In this document: piece after piece, positions 31,775 through 37,902 of the stretch | Numbering within the stretch: position 1 is the stretch's first letter | Layout: the number at the start of each line of letters is the position of its first letter | Source of the DNA: Thermococcus stetteri | GTDB taxonomy: Archaea > Methanobacteriota_B > Thermococci > Thermococcales > Thermococcaceae | Assembly: GCF_017873335.1 (NCBI RefSeq) | Contig: NZ_JAGGKB010000002.1 | Coordinates: forward strand, 248,001 to 312,000 | Reading direction: 5' to 3' | DNA length: 64,000 nt | The notes under the pieces: generated by a model | What the model was told of the DNA's origin: nothing | What the model saw: only the letters and a program-made list of their open reading frames with translations | Database searches by the model: none | Position numbers and translations under genes: made by a program

Positions 31775-33244
31775 TTAGACTTCCGTTTGCCGATTTCTGC
31801 TAAGGGAGCGTTGATCTTTTGATTCCTCCTCGATAATGCGCCTCATCCACGTCCCCCTGCTGAACCAGAGGAAAGCAACTATCGCCGCCAGAAAGTTGCT
31901 CATGCCCATTCCAAAGAACACTCCCTTGGGGCTCATTCCGAAAAGCTCTGCCAGCGGAATTCTAAGTCCGAAAACCATTACCGCCGCAACGTAGCCGAAG
32001 ACGTAGCTCAAGGGTATCCTGAGGCCCCAGAGGCGCAACATGCTGAGAACCATACTCTTCTTTGTATGTCCTGCAGAACTGAACGTCCTCGTCACGACGA
32101 CGAAGATTCCATTGAAGAACGGAACGGATATCAGGAAGTACTTGAGGACGTACTCGCTCTGGGCTATGACCTTGGGGTCATCGAGAAAGACCTTGAAGAC
32201 GGGAACTCTGAAGATTCCGATTATTAGGATTGCAGAGGAGGCTATGAGGAAGTTGATTACCATAGTCCTCTCGGCTATCATCTTCGCCCTCTCGTATTTC
32301 TCCGCTCCGATGTTCTGGGCTATCATCGTTCCCATAGCCATGCTGACACCGCGAGCTATGCTAGTTATGAAGTTCACCAGTCTGGTGGTTATTATGTATG
32401 CCGCGTAGGTCACATCTCCGTAGCCGTATATAATCCTCGTCAGAACCACGAAGCCGAAGCTGTTGGCCGACTGGCCGACTGCAGAAGGCAGGCCGACTCG
32501 GAAAATCCTCGAGTAGAAGTCCATATCCGGCCTGAGGGTCTCCCTCGTGAGATGAAGGCCGCTCTTCCCGCTCGTGAGGATCTTCGCCCCAATCAGCGCC
32601 CCCGTTGAGTTCGAGAGGACTGTGGCTATCGCCGCACCCTCAACACCCCATCTCGGAAATGGCCCAATCCCGAATATCATAATAGGATCAAGGATTATGT
32701 TCATGGCGACGGTGAGCATGCTTATCTTCACCGGCGTTTTTGTATCACCAGAAGCCCTCATGAGGGCCGAGAATGCCATGAAGGTGAAGGAGAATGGAAC
32801 ACCGGCGAAAACGACCGTGGCATAGGCCTTGGCATAGGGATAGACGTTGGGAGTAACCTTCATGAAGTGGAGCGCGTAGGGCAGAATCGCGAGACTTATC
32901 AAAGCGGTGGCCGTTGAAAAGAGGAGCATGAGGGAGTAGAGCGCTCCGGCTGAACGGTTGGCCCTCTCGTAGTTCCCGGCCCCGATGTACTGCCCCACGA
33001 AAGCGAAGCCAGCGGTGGCAAAGCCCATGCCGAGGGCCATGAGAGTTCCTATTATCGGCCAGCTCGTTCCCGGAGCGGCCAATGCCTCTCTGCCGAGCTT
33101 TCCGAGCCAGAAGGTGTCGGTTATGTTGTAGACGACCTGGACGAGGTTGCTGACGATCAGAGGATAGGCTAACTTGAAAAGGGTTCTCTCTATCGGCCCG
33201 GTGAGTATCTGCTCTCGCATCGCTTGAATTTTCCCGCGCTCCAT
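31775..33244 (-). CDS. MATE-family multidrug/metabolite exporter (copy 1)
   Basis: 489 residues, 12 TM helices. [19 protein letters not shown] in TM1-2 and the symmetric repeat near residues 245-280 ([21 protein letters not shown]) are DinF/NorM-type MATE signatures. Ion-coupled export of cationic or organic compounds is the family role; the substrate is unknown. ATG 33244 lies behind a palindrome (33248-33268) and TATA AGTTATAAAAAG. A close paralogue is at 36490-37902 with a similar promoter. Confidence 0.92.
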
Positions 33245-33247
33245 TGG

Positions 33248-33268
33248 GATCACAGTGAGATGGTGATC
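33248..33268 (-). promoter_or_regulatory. Palindrome GATCAC-N9-GTGATC before MATE copy 1
   Basis: A perfect 6-bp inverted repeat lies between the TATA box (33278-33286) and the start codon, a typical repressor position in archaea. The half-sites resemble but do not match the TGM spacing (N9, not N5). The second MATE promoter shares TCGAAACG and TATAAAAAGTT but not this palindrome. Confidence 0.45.
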
Positions 33269-33384: not shown

Positions 33385-33573
33385 TTAGACCTCTTCGAGC
33401 TTTTTCCTCACTTCTTCGGTGTTCTTCCGGGTCTCCTCAAGGGCGTTCCTGAGCTTCTCCAGCTCAAGCTTCATCTCGTTCAGCGTCTTGTTCATCTGAT
33501 AGAACGCGAATATGAACACCACAAGGATTATCAAACCGAGGATTATGCTTATCCATCCACTTGGAGTTGACAC
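33385..33573 (-). CDS. Small membrane protein with C-terminal coiled coil
   Basis: 62 residues: one TM helix (SIILGLIILVVFIFAFY) then a heptad-rich tail of about 35 residues (LNEMKLELEKLRNALEE and on) predicted to form a coiled coil. GTG 33573 is chosen because GGAGGTGA precedes it by 4 bases; an upstream ATG 33594 would place the RBS inside the gene. It follows the ArsR-like gene by 24 bases in one operon. The function is unknown. Confidence 0.72.
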   Translation of the reverse strand: MSTPSGWISIILGLIILVVFIFAFYQMNKTLNEMKLELEKLRNALEETRKNTEEVRKKLEEV

Positions 33574-33597
33574 GTGCTCACCTCCCCACGGCATGTT

Positions 33598-33891
33598 TCA
33601 TTCCTCCAGGCTCTTTATCGTTTCGTTGTCTATAACCACTCTAAACTGCTTTGCGCGGTAGTACTTCTTGGCCCTCGAGTCGTCGGGCTCAAGACGGAGC
33701 TCGCTCTCAACGAGGCCGGCCTTTTCGAGCTTCTTGAGGTGGAGATAAAGGAGCTGCCTTGAGATGCCCAGCTCCTTGGCCAGCTCATAGACGTACCACT
33801 CCTTCTGGCAGAGGAGTTTAAGTATTCTAACCCTCACTGGATTGCTGAGGGCCTCTCCGAGGGCCACGAGTTCCTCAATGCTCCGCACCAT
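33598..33891 (-). CDS. ArsR-like winged-helix transcription regulator
   Basis: 97 residues. A winged helix-turn-helix is evident: EALSNPVRVRILKLLCQKEW, then YELAKELGISRQLLYLHLKKLEKAGLV (recognition helix) and a beta wing (ELRLEPDDSRAKKYYRA). No metal-binding Cys pair of metal-type ArsR proteins is present. ATG 33891 follows GTGATGG; TATA-like GCATATACAG is about 30 bases upstream. It is the first gene of a pair with the coiled-coil membrane protein and adjoins the DUF2202 operon, so it is a candidate regulator of the palindrome at 36343-36368. Confidence 0.87.
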   Translation of the reverse strand: MVRSIEELVALGEALSNPVRVRILKLLCQKEWYVYELAKELGISRQLLYLHLKKLEKAGLVESELRLEPDDSRAKKYYRAKQFRVVIDNETIKSLEE

Positions 33892-33967: not shown

Positions 33968-34651
33968 TTAGTTGGGACCGACTATCTCCGAATACTCCTC
34001 CTCGCTGAGTATCGCCGGCCTGTACTCCTCCCCGTTCTTCTCAATGTTGTTCACAAAGGCGCGGAGGTGGTTCTTGCTTCCCTTCCTTAAGTTTTCAAAG
34101 ACCACCCTTATGTCCTGGTTGTCCACCTTTTCGAGCCATTCGTCGAGATCTTTTATGTCCAGCTCCTCTATGTAAGCTCCGACCTTCAGAGCCTCTAGCT
34201 CGCTGGTCTTCCCCCTCTCAACGAGCTCGTTGTAGAGGTTTTCCATTTCAGGACTCGCGAATTCTCCAATTTCTAGTCCCTCAACAGGGTCGGTGAGGTT
34301 GTATTTTTCAATTAAAGATAGCACCATGTCCATGTGGGTCTCTTCACTCTTCTCTATGTTTCTGAACACCGTCAATCCCGTCTCTTTGTAGAGCGTAAGG
34401 TAAACGTCCCTCGCGAGCTTCTCTTCCTCTCGCATGTAGAGGATTGCCTCTATCTCATCCGGGCTAAGGTTCTCGACAGGCAGTGTTGAGACGTCCTCTT
34501 CTCCCTTCACTCCCTTGCCGTAGCCCTTGTCCTCATGGGGGCTTCCACCGGCATTCTCATTTGGAGTGCTGCTCGATATGCACCCACTCACTGCAACGAG
34601 AATAACCAAAAGGCCGACCAGCCCAAAGATCGCTTTCCTTCCCATCTTCAT
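33968..34651 (-). CDS. DUF2202 ferritin-like lipoprotein
   Basis: 227 residues. A lipoprotein signal (LLVILVAVSGCISSS) ends in the lipobox Cys, then an acidic linker, then a DUF2202 four-helix domain: YMREEEKLARDVYLTLY, EKSEETHMDMVLSLIEKY, KNHLRAFVNNI. Conserved Glu and His in these helices match the pattern of ferritin-like metal sites (inference). ATG 34651 overlaps the upstream stop (ATGA); a second ATG is at 34645. The N-terminal extension in the longer frame to 34891 lies inside the upstream gene and is not real. It is last in the operon. Confidence 0.82.
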   Translation of the reverse strand: MKMGRKAIFGLVGLLVILVAVSGCISSSTPNENAGGSPHEDKGYGKGVKGEEDVSTLPVENLSPDEIEAILYMREEEKLARDVYLTLYKETGLTVFRNIEKSEETHMDMVLSLIEKYNLTDPVEGLEIGEFASPEMENLYNELVERGKTSELEALKVGAYIEELDIKDLDEWLEKVDNQDIRVVFENLRKGSKNHLRAFVNNIEKNGEEYRPAILSEEEYSEIVGPN

Positions 34652-35016
34652 CCCCTCAGCAGGGCGTAGATTATTCCCCCACCAACGAAGAGCACTGAGA
34701 GAGCCGTTAGGGTAGCTGTGGCCCTCCAGTTTACCTTCCGCTCCTTTCTGTTTGTGACGATGTTTCTCAGCATGCACAGCATCGGGTTGAAATTGATGAT
34801 GAGGTGGAGCGCCACCAGCGCGACCATGGCGAAGCCGAAGTATATGTGAAGTCCTTCCCATGCTTCTTTGTCGAGGCCCAGGAAAGTCCATAGCTCCTCC
34901 CTCGCAATCCTTCCGTTTGGGGCGATATACAGGGCTATCCCCGAAAGGGCTTCGATGATAAAATCAAAGAGCAGGAGCAGGTCGAGGGTTGGTTTAAACC
35001 ATCTCGGGACTCTCAT
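34648..35016 (-). CDS. DUF4405-like membrane cytochrome b-type protein
   Basis: 122 residues, three TM helices. His57 (GLHIYFGF) and His71 (ALHLIINF), 14 residues apart in one helix region, are positioned like the b-heme ligands of DUF4405/cytochrome b561-type proteins. It would carry electrons across or within the membrane. The start overlaps the preceding 46-residue gene (ATGA) and its stop overlaps the DUF2202 lipoprotein start, so all are translationally coupled. Heme binding is inferred. Confidence 0.75.
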   Translation of the reverse strand: MRVPRWFKPTLDLLLLFDFIIEALSGIALYIAPNGRIAREELWTFLGLDKEAWEGLHIYFGFAMVALVALHLIINFNPMLCMLRNIVTNRKERKVNWRATATLTALSVLFVGGGIIYALLRG

Positions 35017-35153
35017 TCTTCTTCACATTCCTCTATTTCTTCTTCCCTGAAAGATCCTCTCGCGATAAGGTAGCCGACCACCATCATCGCGGCGATTACT
35101 ATAAGACCAACCACGAGACCAATCTCGTTTCTACCAGCGTTAATCGGCCCCAT
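35013..35153 (-). CDS. 46-residue single-TM protein
   Basis: A short polar N-terminus, one TM helix (GLVVGLIVIAAMMVVGYLIA) and an acidic tail of consecutive Glu with one Cys. The RBS GAGGAGGGTAA precedes ATG 35153. The stop overlaps the DUF4405 gene start by 4 bases, and the start overlaps the end of the 39-residue frame by 14 bases. Too short for routine gene finders, but spacing argues that it is real. Unknown function; perhaps a small subunit of the cytochrome complex. Confidence 0.65.
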   Translation of the reverse strand: MGPINAGRNEIGLVVGLIVIAAMMVVGYLIARGSFREEEIEECEEE

Positions 35154-35259
35154 TTCTTTTACCCTCCTCTCTGTGGATAGCCGGTGAGGGCTGGGAGCTC
35201 TGGGTCCCCTTGGTGAGTTTTAATATGAAGCTCAGAATTGCCGTTATGGACTCACGCAT
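35140..35259 (-). CDS. 39-residue small protein
   Basis: An amphipathic N-terminus (MRESITAILSFILKLTKG) and a polar, Pro/Ser/Glu-containing tail. A very strong RBS GAGGAGGTAGGAAA lies before ATG 35259, overlapping the stop region of the 57-residue gene. The frame is coupled to both neighbours. No family. It could be a regulatory or leader peptide rather than a subunit. Confidence 0.5.
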   Translation of the reverse strand: MRESITAILSFILKLTKGTQSSQPSPAIHREEGKRNGAD

Positions 35260-35263
35260 TTTC

Positions 35264-35437
35264 CTACCTCCTCAGCAAGGCATAGAGTATTGCGCCGAAC
35301 AGGAGCAGGGGCAGTAGGAGCAGTGAAAATCTTGCCATCAGGAAGAGGATTCCGAATATTCCTAAGCCCCACCAGCCCCAGCCGAACCTCTTTCTTCCGT
35401 GCATCGGGCCCATCATTGGGCCGAACCCGCGTGGCAC
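35264..35437 (-). CDS. 57-residue Met/His/Trp-rich membrane protein
   Basis: The N-terminus PRGFGPMMGPMHGRKRFGWGW is rich in Met, His, Gly and Trp, as in copper-handling peptides; a long hydrophobic helix follows (LLLLPLLLFGAILYALL). GTG 35437 is chosen because GGAGGTGA precedes it by 5 bases. It sits 35 bases after the His/Met-rich DUF2202 gene. Metal handling is an inference from composition. Confidence 0.65.
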   Translation of the reverse strand: MPRGFGPMMGPMHGRKRFGWGWWGLGIFGILFLMARFSLLLLPLLLFGAILYALLRR

Positions 35438-35472
35438 TTCTCTCACCTCCCAGAGGAAAATAAAGAGAGGCT

Positions 35473-36327
35473 TCAGGCCCCCTCTCCCTGCATGGAGCAG
35501 TCCCCGTTATCGTAGCCTCTCACAAGCATGTGCCCTCCATCGTTGCCGCTTTTTCCATGTTCGTGGGCGCCTTTCCTGTGTTCGTAACCTTTCATCATAT
35601 TTCCTCTATGTCCTTTTGCCATCCTGTCACTGTGCTTCATGTGGCTGTGGTTTTCTCCCGCCATCATCTTACCGTGTCCGCTGTGGCCAGTCTCTCCAGC
35701 CAATATCTTGCCAAGCTGCTCCTGGGGAAGCACCTGGGCGCTGTACTCAACGTCCTCTGCCTCCAGGTTCCTCACAAAGGCCCTTAGGTGGTTCTCGCTT
35801 CCGGCCATGAGGTTGCTGTAAACCCTTGCTATGTCCTTGTTGTCGGTCTTGGCGATCCAGTCTTCAAGGTCCTTGATGTCAGTTTCCTCTATAAGTGCCC
35901 CAACTTTGAGTGCATCAACGGTGCTCTGACTTCCCTGCTCGATCAGCTGGTCGTAGAGGGCCTGGAGCTCAGGGTTCTCAAAGACGCCAACCTTGTCGAG
36001 CGTATCCGGTGCGGTCAGGTTGTACTTCTCGATCAGCGAGAGCACGACATCCGTGTGTCTTTGCTCGCTCTGGGCTATCCTCTCGAAGACTGCGAGACCA
36101 GTTTCGTTGTAGAGCGTTAGGTAGATGTCCCTCGCAAGCTTCTCCTCCTCGACCGTATAGAGCAGGCCGCTGGCCTCTTCGTCGCTCAGTGGAGCGTAGT
36201 AGTCCTGGTATGCCCTTGGTGCCTCAGGGTTAGTTCCTGGCACTCCCATGTAGGCCGCTGCTCCCCCCAGCACCAGCCCGAACAGGGCCAGCACCAGGAA
36301 ACCAATTCCCAATATTTTCTTTCTCAT
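35473..36327 (-). CDS. Secreted DUF2202 ferritin-like protein with His/Met-rich tail
   Basis: 284 residues. A signal peptide (ILGIGFLVLALFGLVLGG), then the DUF2202 domain (about residues 45-205) with VEEEKLARDIYLTLYNE, IAQSEQRHTDVVLSLIEKY and GSENHLRAFVRNL, then a tail of about 70 residues dense in His, Met, Gly and Lys (SGHGKMMAGENHSHMKHS and more). The tail looks like a soft-metal buffer for Cu or Ag, perhaps Fe. It heads a six-gene operon behind a strong palindrome. The second DUF2202 at the operon end lacks the tail. Confidence 0.84.
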   Translation of the reverse strand: MRKKILGIGFLVLALFGLVLGGAAAYMGVPGTNPEAPRAYQDYYAPLSDEEASGLLYTVEEEKLARDIYLTLYNETGLAVFERIAQSEQRHTDVVLSLIEKYNLTAPDTLDKVGVFENPELQALYDQLIEQGSQSTVDALKVGALIEETDIKDLEDWIAKTDNKDIARVYSNLMAGSENHLRAFVRNLEAEDVEYSAQVLPQEQLGKILAGETGHSGHGKMMAGENHSHMKHSDRMAKGHRGNMMKGYEHRKGAHEHGKSGNDGGHMLVRGYDNGDCSMQGEGA

Positions 36328-36342
36328 GTTGGTTCACCTCTC

Positions 36343-36368
36343 CATATGTAACTTCGGTATTACATATG
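36343..36368 (-). promoter_or_regulatory. Perfect 9-8-9 palindrome at the DUF2202 operon promoter
   Basis: CATATGTAA-N8-TTACATATG lies 15-41 bases before the first ATG. TATA GCTTTATAAACC (36377-36390) is just upstream, so the predicted transcription start falls inside the palindrome, the classic archaeal repressor site. Half-site length suits a winged-helix dimer such as the ArsR-like protein at 33598-33891. Confidence 0.7.
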
Positions 36369-36489
36369 CATGTTTGGTTTATAAAGCTTTTGGTTTGAGT
36401 TGCGAGAACGAAAGCACGTATGTATTTTGAGTAAGAGTCTCAATGAGCGTTAGAAATTGAAGAAGAATGACAGAACTCATAACGGGAAA

Positions 36490-37902
36490 TCAGTGCCTCT
36501 CGATTATAGCCTTCATCCAGCTCCCCCTGAGGAACCAGGCGAGGGCTATAACGGCTCCGAGGAAGTTGCTGAGGCCCATTCCGAGCCACATTCCAGCGGT
36601 GTCCCTCATCAGAACTCCAAGGCCGTAGCTGAGAGGGAGCCTTATGCCCCAGAGGCGAACCATCCCAATGACCATGCTCTTCTTCGTATGTCCGGCGCTG
36701 TTGAAGGTGTTGTTCACGGCCGAGAATATTCCGAAGAACGGGAGCGATGCGGAGAAGTAGAGGACAACCTTTCTGCTCTCTGCTATTATCGCCGGGTCGT
36801 TGATGAAGAACCTGAATATTGGAACGCGGAATAGGACGAAGAGTATTGTCCCAGCACTCAGGATAGCGAAGTTTATGAGCATCGTCTTCTCAGCTATCTT
36901 CTTGGCCCTCTCGTAGAGGCCGGCACCGATGGCCTGGCCCACCATGGTACCCATCGCCATGCTTATGCCGTCGGAGAAGGCGAACATGAAGTTGGTGAGC
37001 CTGTTGGTTATGCTGTAGGTCGCGAAGGCAACGTCTTCAAAGTGCAGAATCCCGTGGGCTTCCCCGTAGAGCCGTCCGACGGTGAAGATGACCCTCGTAA
37101 GGATCACAAAACCGAGGGCAGTTGTTGATGAGCCGACGCTTGAGGGCAGGCCAACGCGGAAGATTCTGGAATAGAAGTGGAAATCCGGCTTGAGGGTCTC
37201 GGGAGTGAGGTGTATGCTCACCTTTCCGGTGAAGAGAAGGTAGCCCCCGATGAGGGAACCGAGGCTGTTGGAGAGCATGGTTGCGACTGCCGCACCGACG
37301 ACACCCAGTTGGGGAAACGGCCCCCAGCCGAAGATGAAGAATGGATCAAGGACCAGGTTAAGTAGAACGGTGCCGATGTTTATCTTAACCGGCGTCCTCG
37401 TGTCCCCAACGGCCCTCAGGAGGAAGTTGAAGGCGAAGAGCGTGAAGGAGAAGGGTATGCCCGCGAAGATAACCCTCGTGTAGAGGAGCGCGTATGGGAA
37501 GATGGTATCGCTCACGCCCATCAGGCGGAGGAGATAGGGGGCCAATATGACGCCGGATATTCCAACGGCCGTGGCAAAGAGAAGCATGAGGGAATAGAGG
37601 GCGCCCGCATAGCGGTTTGCCTTATCGTAGTCCCTAGCTCCAACGTACTGGCTCACGAAGGCGAAGCCCGCCGTTGCAAACCCCATGCCTATGCTCATGA
37701 AGAACCACACGAGCGGCCACGCCGTTCCTGGAGCCGAGAGCTCAAGCCTCCCGAGCTTTCCGAGCCAGAAGGTATCGGTGAGGTTGTAGAGAACCTGAAC
37801 GAGCTGGTTTATGATTAGGGGGTACGCTAACAGGATGAGCGTCTTAACTATCGGCCCGGTGAGTATCTGCTCGCGCATCTGCTCTACTTTCTCGCCCCTC
37901 AT
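36490..37902 (-). CDS. MATE-family multidrug/metabolite exporter (copy 2)
   Basis: 470 residues, 12 TM helices, paralogous to 31775-33244 (shared [25 protein letters not shown] and TRTPVKI stretches). It differs by an insertion before the second half-repeat (VGRLYGEAHGILHFEDVAF). TATA GGTATAAAAAG is about 25 bases before ATG 37902, with no RBS, so the mRNA is likely leaderless. Substrate unknown. Its position beyond the DUF2202 operon is not obviously functional. Confidence 0.92.
   Translation of the reverse strand: MRGEKVEQMREQILTGPIVKTLILLAYPLIINQLVQVLYNLTDTFWLGKLGRLELSAPGTAWPLVWFFMSIGMGFATAGFAFVSQYVGARDYDKANRYAGALYSLMLLFATAVGISGVILAPYLLRLMGVSDTIFPYALLYTRVIFAGIPFSFTLFAFNFLLRAVGDTRTPVKINIGTVLLNLVLDPFFIFGWGPFPQLGVVGAAVATMLSNSLGSLIGGYLLFTGKVSIHLTPETLKPDFHFYSRIFRVGLPSSVGSSTTALGFVILTRVIFTVGRLYGEAHGILHFEDVAFATYSITNRLTNFMFAFSDGISMAMGTMVGQAIGAGLYERAKKIAEKTMLINFAILSAGTILFVLFRVPIFRFFINDPAIIAESRKVVLYFSASLPFFGIFSAVNNTFNSAGHTKKSMVIGMVRLWGIRLPLSYGLGVLMRDTAGMWLGMGLSNFLGAVIALAWFLRGSWMKAIIERH

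Follow-up and report, generated by a model that had tools for sequence, protein, structure and literature searches.

A conserved DUF2202-DUF4405 operon in Thermococcus stetteri with a presumed ArsR-type repressor and presumed palindromic operator

Gene content of the locus

The locus lies within a 64,000-nucleotide stretch of the Thermococcus stetteri genome (the whole stretch is referred to here as the window) and comprises six minus-strand frames, A to F, which run from 36327 to 33968 behind a single TATA box, followed by two further genes, G and H, with a TATA box of their own. The initial annotation had described the six frames, and their coordinates, spacing and common TATA box were confirmed here, with the TATA sequence found to be conserved; the locus itself continues to G and H. 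A 26-bp palindrome ahead of A had been missed. The features are as follows.

A, 35473..36327, minus strand: secreted DUF2202 ferritin-like protein, 284 aa (PF09968, 194.1 bits)
B, 35264..35437, minus strand: 57-aa membrane protein with a GTG start (24 family members, including the window's own)
C, 35140..35259, minus strand: 39-aa open frame, coding status unsupported (no third-position bias)
D, 35013..35153, minus strand: 46-aa single-helix protein with an acidic tail, lineage-specific
E, 34648..35016, minus strand: DUF4405 half-cytochrome b with three membrane helices (PF14358, 66.3 bits)
F, 33968..34651 (or from 34645), minus strand: DUF2202 lipoprotein, lipobox ending at Cys22 (PF09968, 198 bits)
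G, 33598..33891, minus strand: ArsR-type winged-helix regulator, own promoter upstream (PF01022, 54 bits)
H, 33385..33594, minus strand: 69-aa protein with one membrane helix and a coiled coil, adjoining G in nearly all loci examined
TATA box of the A-F unit, 36378..36386, minus strand: CTTTATAAA, after a BRE-like ACCRAAA, at a fixed spacing in about 30 relatives
26-bp palindrome, 36343..36368, unstranded: CATATGTAA-N8-TTACATATG, presumed G operator over the expected transcription start

A and B are 35 bases apart and B and C 4 bases apart, C and D overlap by 14 bases and D and E by 4, and E and F either share an ATGA overlap (F start at 34651) or lie 2 bases apart (F start at 34645). One hydrophobic stretch is present in each of B, D, and H, three are present in E, and C has none. 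In the sequence, two related MATE-type transporter genes (31775-33253 and 36490-37902) can be read on the same strand at either side of the locus.

The T. stetteri genome contains two DUF2202 genes, both within the A-F operon, and their products score far above the curated PF09968 cut-off of 22 bits, in agreement with the initial assignment. The N-terminus of A is signal-like, and its 70-residue tail is rich in His and Met, which make up 26% of the residues (fractions of 0.11 to 0.30 where relatives possess a tail); the tail of many relatives terminates instead in what looks like an amphipathic helix, and it is missing altogether from one. F had been read as a lipoprotein, and 94% of relatives share its lipobox cysteine. 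Each of E73 to E75, E101, H104, E160, D163, S190, and H193 (F numbering) is retained in at least 82 of the 85 aligned DUF2202 rows, with helix 2 of the domain carrying ExxH and helix 4 carrying S-x-N-H rather than the classical ExxH in this 85-row alignment. The classical ferritin/rubrerythrin diiron site, defined by two ExxH motifs and two further Glu ligands, was not found in A or F, in which the second ExxH is missing and the Rubrerythrin profile score is below the cut-off. The conserved residues resemble a ferritin-like metal site, which need not be a normal diiron site. The DUF2202 domain is shared with MJ0754 (PDB 3q4n, 3q4o, 3q4q, and 3q4r; phmmer E values of 1.6e-58 to F and 1.1e-53 to A), which was deposited as uncharacterised and whose matched region lacks the His/Met tail that A possesses. 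Literature searches found no paper naming DUF2202 or MJ0754, and the MJ0754 PDB identifiers retrieved unrelated papers only.

E, the DUF4405-type protein of the initial annotation, passes the PF14358 cut-off of 26.7 bits, and its His57 and His71 are invariant in 11 diverse proteins from across phyla. The predicted E structure has fair confidence (mean pLDDT of 85), and its top matches in the PDB were cytochrome b chains, none of them significant; a sequence-profile search of E against the PDB gave no cytochrome among the matches, and no significant match came from a fold search with a long bacterial E. With three helices and two histidines of this kind, E differs from the single-chain DUF4405 form, which has six helices and four histidines, and bacterial E proteins appear to contain two copies of the unit. 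According to PMC5898192, a DUF4405 unit with two such histidines corresponds roughly to half of a cytochrome b561, and E is therefore likely a homodimer, which would be needed to equal the six-helix form. The binding of haem b has been shown for a DUF4405 protein and for the related FezC (PMC11334425), which are likewise membrane proteins with central histidines, with FezC modelled as a homodimer; they differ from the present case in that no ApbE or flavinylated partner occurs among A to H and the partner of E is ferritin-like. In most relatives, E is about 213 to 244 residues long, its third helix being followed by an extracytoplasmic C-terminal domain, and the E of the window is a short form without it. 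This C-terminal domain passed the IF2_N profile cut-off in one of the two longer proteins scored.

The three tiny proteins proposed initially differ in their support. Relative to the sister genome G021, substitutions by codon position number 4/1/9 in B (dN/dS 0.19), 3/0/9 in D (dN/dS 0.12), and 6/3/5 in C (dN/dS 0.42), a pattern indicating that B and D are under purifying selection. B is conserved widely and D narrowly, the latter being found in this genome and two relatives, with a remnant of its last 15 codons in the close relative G030, from which B, C, and the greater part of F have also disappeared. C is restricted to the window and one sister genome and has no coding support; because a plausible ribosome-binding site can be read ahead of it, C is not disproved and may still be a gene. 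B had been described as rich in Met, His, and Trp, of which one Trp is conserved, together with Pro, Gly, and Arg residues, and the Met/His content is not.

Palindrome and regulator G

The palindrome begins 9 bases after the TATA box and ends 15 bases before the start codon of A, and it is the single match in the window, where 0.01 is expected with up to 3 mismatches. It was found in 40 of 61 genomes of the genus, and the reversed control pattern was found in none. Both the palindrome and G occur in 37 genomes, a broken G alone in 1, the palindrome alone in 3, and neither in 20, so that the palindrome accompanies G in 37 of 38 genomes and is present in 3 of the 23 without G (Fisher P = 5.5e-12, a value that ignores shared ancestry). 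Two of the three palindrome-only genomes (G017 and G043) have their contig end next to E, short of the expected position of G; the third is G020. G and H have their own conserved TATA box, without the palindrome. Since the palindrome covers the expected transcription start of A-F, G probably represses the operon through it. G scores 51.5 bits against the NF033788 profile of ArsR/SmtB metalloregulators, below the cut-off of 55, and has no obvious metal-binding cysteine motif.

Other palindrome sites precede an E operon of a second arrangement, stand-alone DUF2202 genes, and the gene of a secreted protein of 153 aa; some of them have a gene resembling peroxiredoxin or AhpD next to them. A similar palindrome in the distant archaeon G087 is followed by a secreted protein and then by G-like and H-like genes. 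The 153-aa protein (L241 to L248) has an AAYQGVPGPNP N-terminus that resembles that of A; in several genomes, sequences related to its C-terminal part lie between A and B, and in G007 a secreted protein of this type replaces A. Imperfect palindromes also occur upstream of or near a 100- to 106-aa gene of unassigned family that follows a glycine dehydrogenase subunit gene (L249 to L255); being imperfect, these were not counted as part of the regulon.

Conservation in Thermococcus and pairing in other phyla

Among 100 relatives searched, E had a match in 35 and DUF2202 in 41. The search for the same gene order in related genomes, which the initial annotation had proposed, recovered A-B-E-F-G-H, with losses, in about 35 relatives (40 fetched regions), with F absent from several and G and H following the locus in nearly all. 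Several genomes have a second arrangement consisting of E, an H-like gene, a CW_binding_2 protein gene, A, B, G, and H.

The system had been called undescribed, and this does not hold for the Thermococcus neighbourhood, which was described in 2015 in PMC5898192 as CL1_0239-CL1_0246 and proposed as a possible iron-dependent redox complex or electron transfer system. This locus type, with the DUF4405 cytochrome, two ferritin-like proteins, the ArsR regulator, and the coiled-coil protein together, is also present in T. stetteri. Compared with that neighbourhood, T. stetteri has a short E, the additional frames D and C, and no secreted protein of the 153-aa type anywhere in its genome. Aldehyde oxidoreductase and aldo-keto reductase genes adjoin the locus at L117 and are not next to the T. 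stetteri operon. The relevant section of PMC5898192 makes no mention of the palindrome or of cross-phylum pairing; that paper was the only one found to name the arCOGs of the locus, and the operon is not mentioned in the accessible portions of Thermococcus papers on cadmium, iron sulfide, pressure, and heat or oxidative stress. What is new here is the cross-domain pairing, the operator with its small regulon, the coding verdicts, and the short-cytochrome variant.

Scanning named genomes yielded 80 DUF2202 loci, in which DUF4405 was sought with a profile built from E-like proteins. In six loci outside Thermococcus, from five phyla (four bacterial), DUF4405 lies less than 100 bases from DUF2202: in Thermoproteales, WOR-3, two Aquificota (Thermovibrio and Desulfurobacteriaceae), Acidobacteria, and Anaerolineales. 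Divergent pairs less than 700 bases apart occur in another Acidobacteriota genome and in an Aminicenantes genome. By plain count, DUF4405 outnumbers every other Pfam family among the 132 genes immediately beside DUF2202 outside Thermococcus, with 6 members, and the majority of bacterial DUF2202 genes lack a DUF4405 neighbour. Most of the paired contigs outside Thermococcus come from metagenome-assembled genomes, and their taxon labels thus carry some risk.

Proposed function and alternatives

From the computed gene order, families, conserved residues, palindrome, and palindrome-G co-occurrence, we infer a mechanism in which the metal, haem binding by E, the direction of electron flow, the roles of B and D, repression by G, and the substrate are predictions. 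The four-helix ferritin-like domains of A (secreted) and F (lipid anchored) would each bind a metal, most likely iron, through their conserved Glu and His residues. E would pair with a second copy, holding two b haems across the membrane, and pass electrons to (less likely, from) the A/F metal centre, which may then react repeatedly with an oxidant (O2 or peroxide, for example) or alternate between Fe(III) and Fe(II). B and D may be small membrane subunits that stabilise the complex or help it to dock, and G, made with H from its own promoter, would bind the palindrome and repress A-F until a signal appears. Such a device, an extracytoplasmic redox centre of ferritin-like type that receives its electrons from the E cytochrome and is repressed by G, is given an even chance of being correct. 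The coupling of an extracytoplasmic ferritin-like protein to a membrane cytochrome, already suggested by the initial annotation, is supported by the conserved Thermococcus operon, the DUF2202-DUF4405 adjacency in unrelated phyla, the invariant metal- and haem-type residues, and the published haem binding of DUF4405 proteins (PMC11334425). The metal storage or oxidation that the annotation also suggested, and a role in Cu or Ag handling, remain conjectural.

The locus is real, conserved, and only partly described before, and the redox reading is the best supported, with storage and soft-metal capture remaining as rivals. A and F might instead oxidise and hold iron outside the membrane while E removes or returns electrons, as proposed for FezC in ferrosomes, a role to which the ferritin-like relatives of known structure, the relationship of DUF4405 to FezC (PMC11334425), and the iron-rich vent habitat of Thermococcales would be suited; however, nothing points to cage formation, the diiron motif is incomplete, and no ferrosome ATPase (FezB) was seen on reading through the open reading frame list of 31.5 to 39.5 kb, and iron storage or ferroxidase activity is considered unlikely. 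The capture of copper, silver, or another soft metal by the A tail, with G as the metal sensor, is in keeping with the His/Met content of that tail and the ArsR type of G, but it appears rather improbable given the helix-ended tails of many relatives and the tailless one, the unconserved Met/His of B, and the lack of a recognised metal motif in G. Lower still stands the idea that A/F and E do not act together and merely share regulation in a general envelope-stress response: the palindrome sites before the 153-aa protein gene and stand-alone DUF2202 genes, some beside peroxiredoxin-like or AhpD-like genes, are consistent with it, and the tight DUF2202-DUF4405 adjacency in unrelated phyla argues against it.

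Extended beyond this operon, the ferritin-like redox centre may be one case of a two-part DUF2202-DUF4405 oxidoreductase widespread in archaea and bacteria, with an extracytoplasmic ferritin-like centre that has altered fourth-helix ligands, a half-cytochrome b that powers it as a dimer and, in Thermococcus, an ArsR-type repressor of its own acting at a 26-bp operator; this generalisation is tentative and somewhat more likely to fail than to hold. A partner cytochrome conserved in several phyla, together with a predicted regulator and operator, makes this orphan ferritin-like family testable, and would point to anaerobic hyperthermophiles delivering electrons to an extracellular metal centre.

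Two open frames, L130 (in G005) and L043 (in G052), have two tandem DUF2202 domains each; the G005 frame is preceded by the palindrome and lies apart from the main operon.
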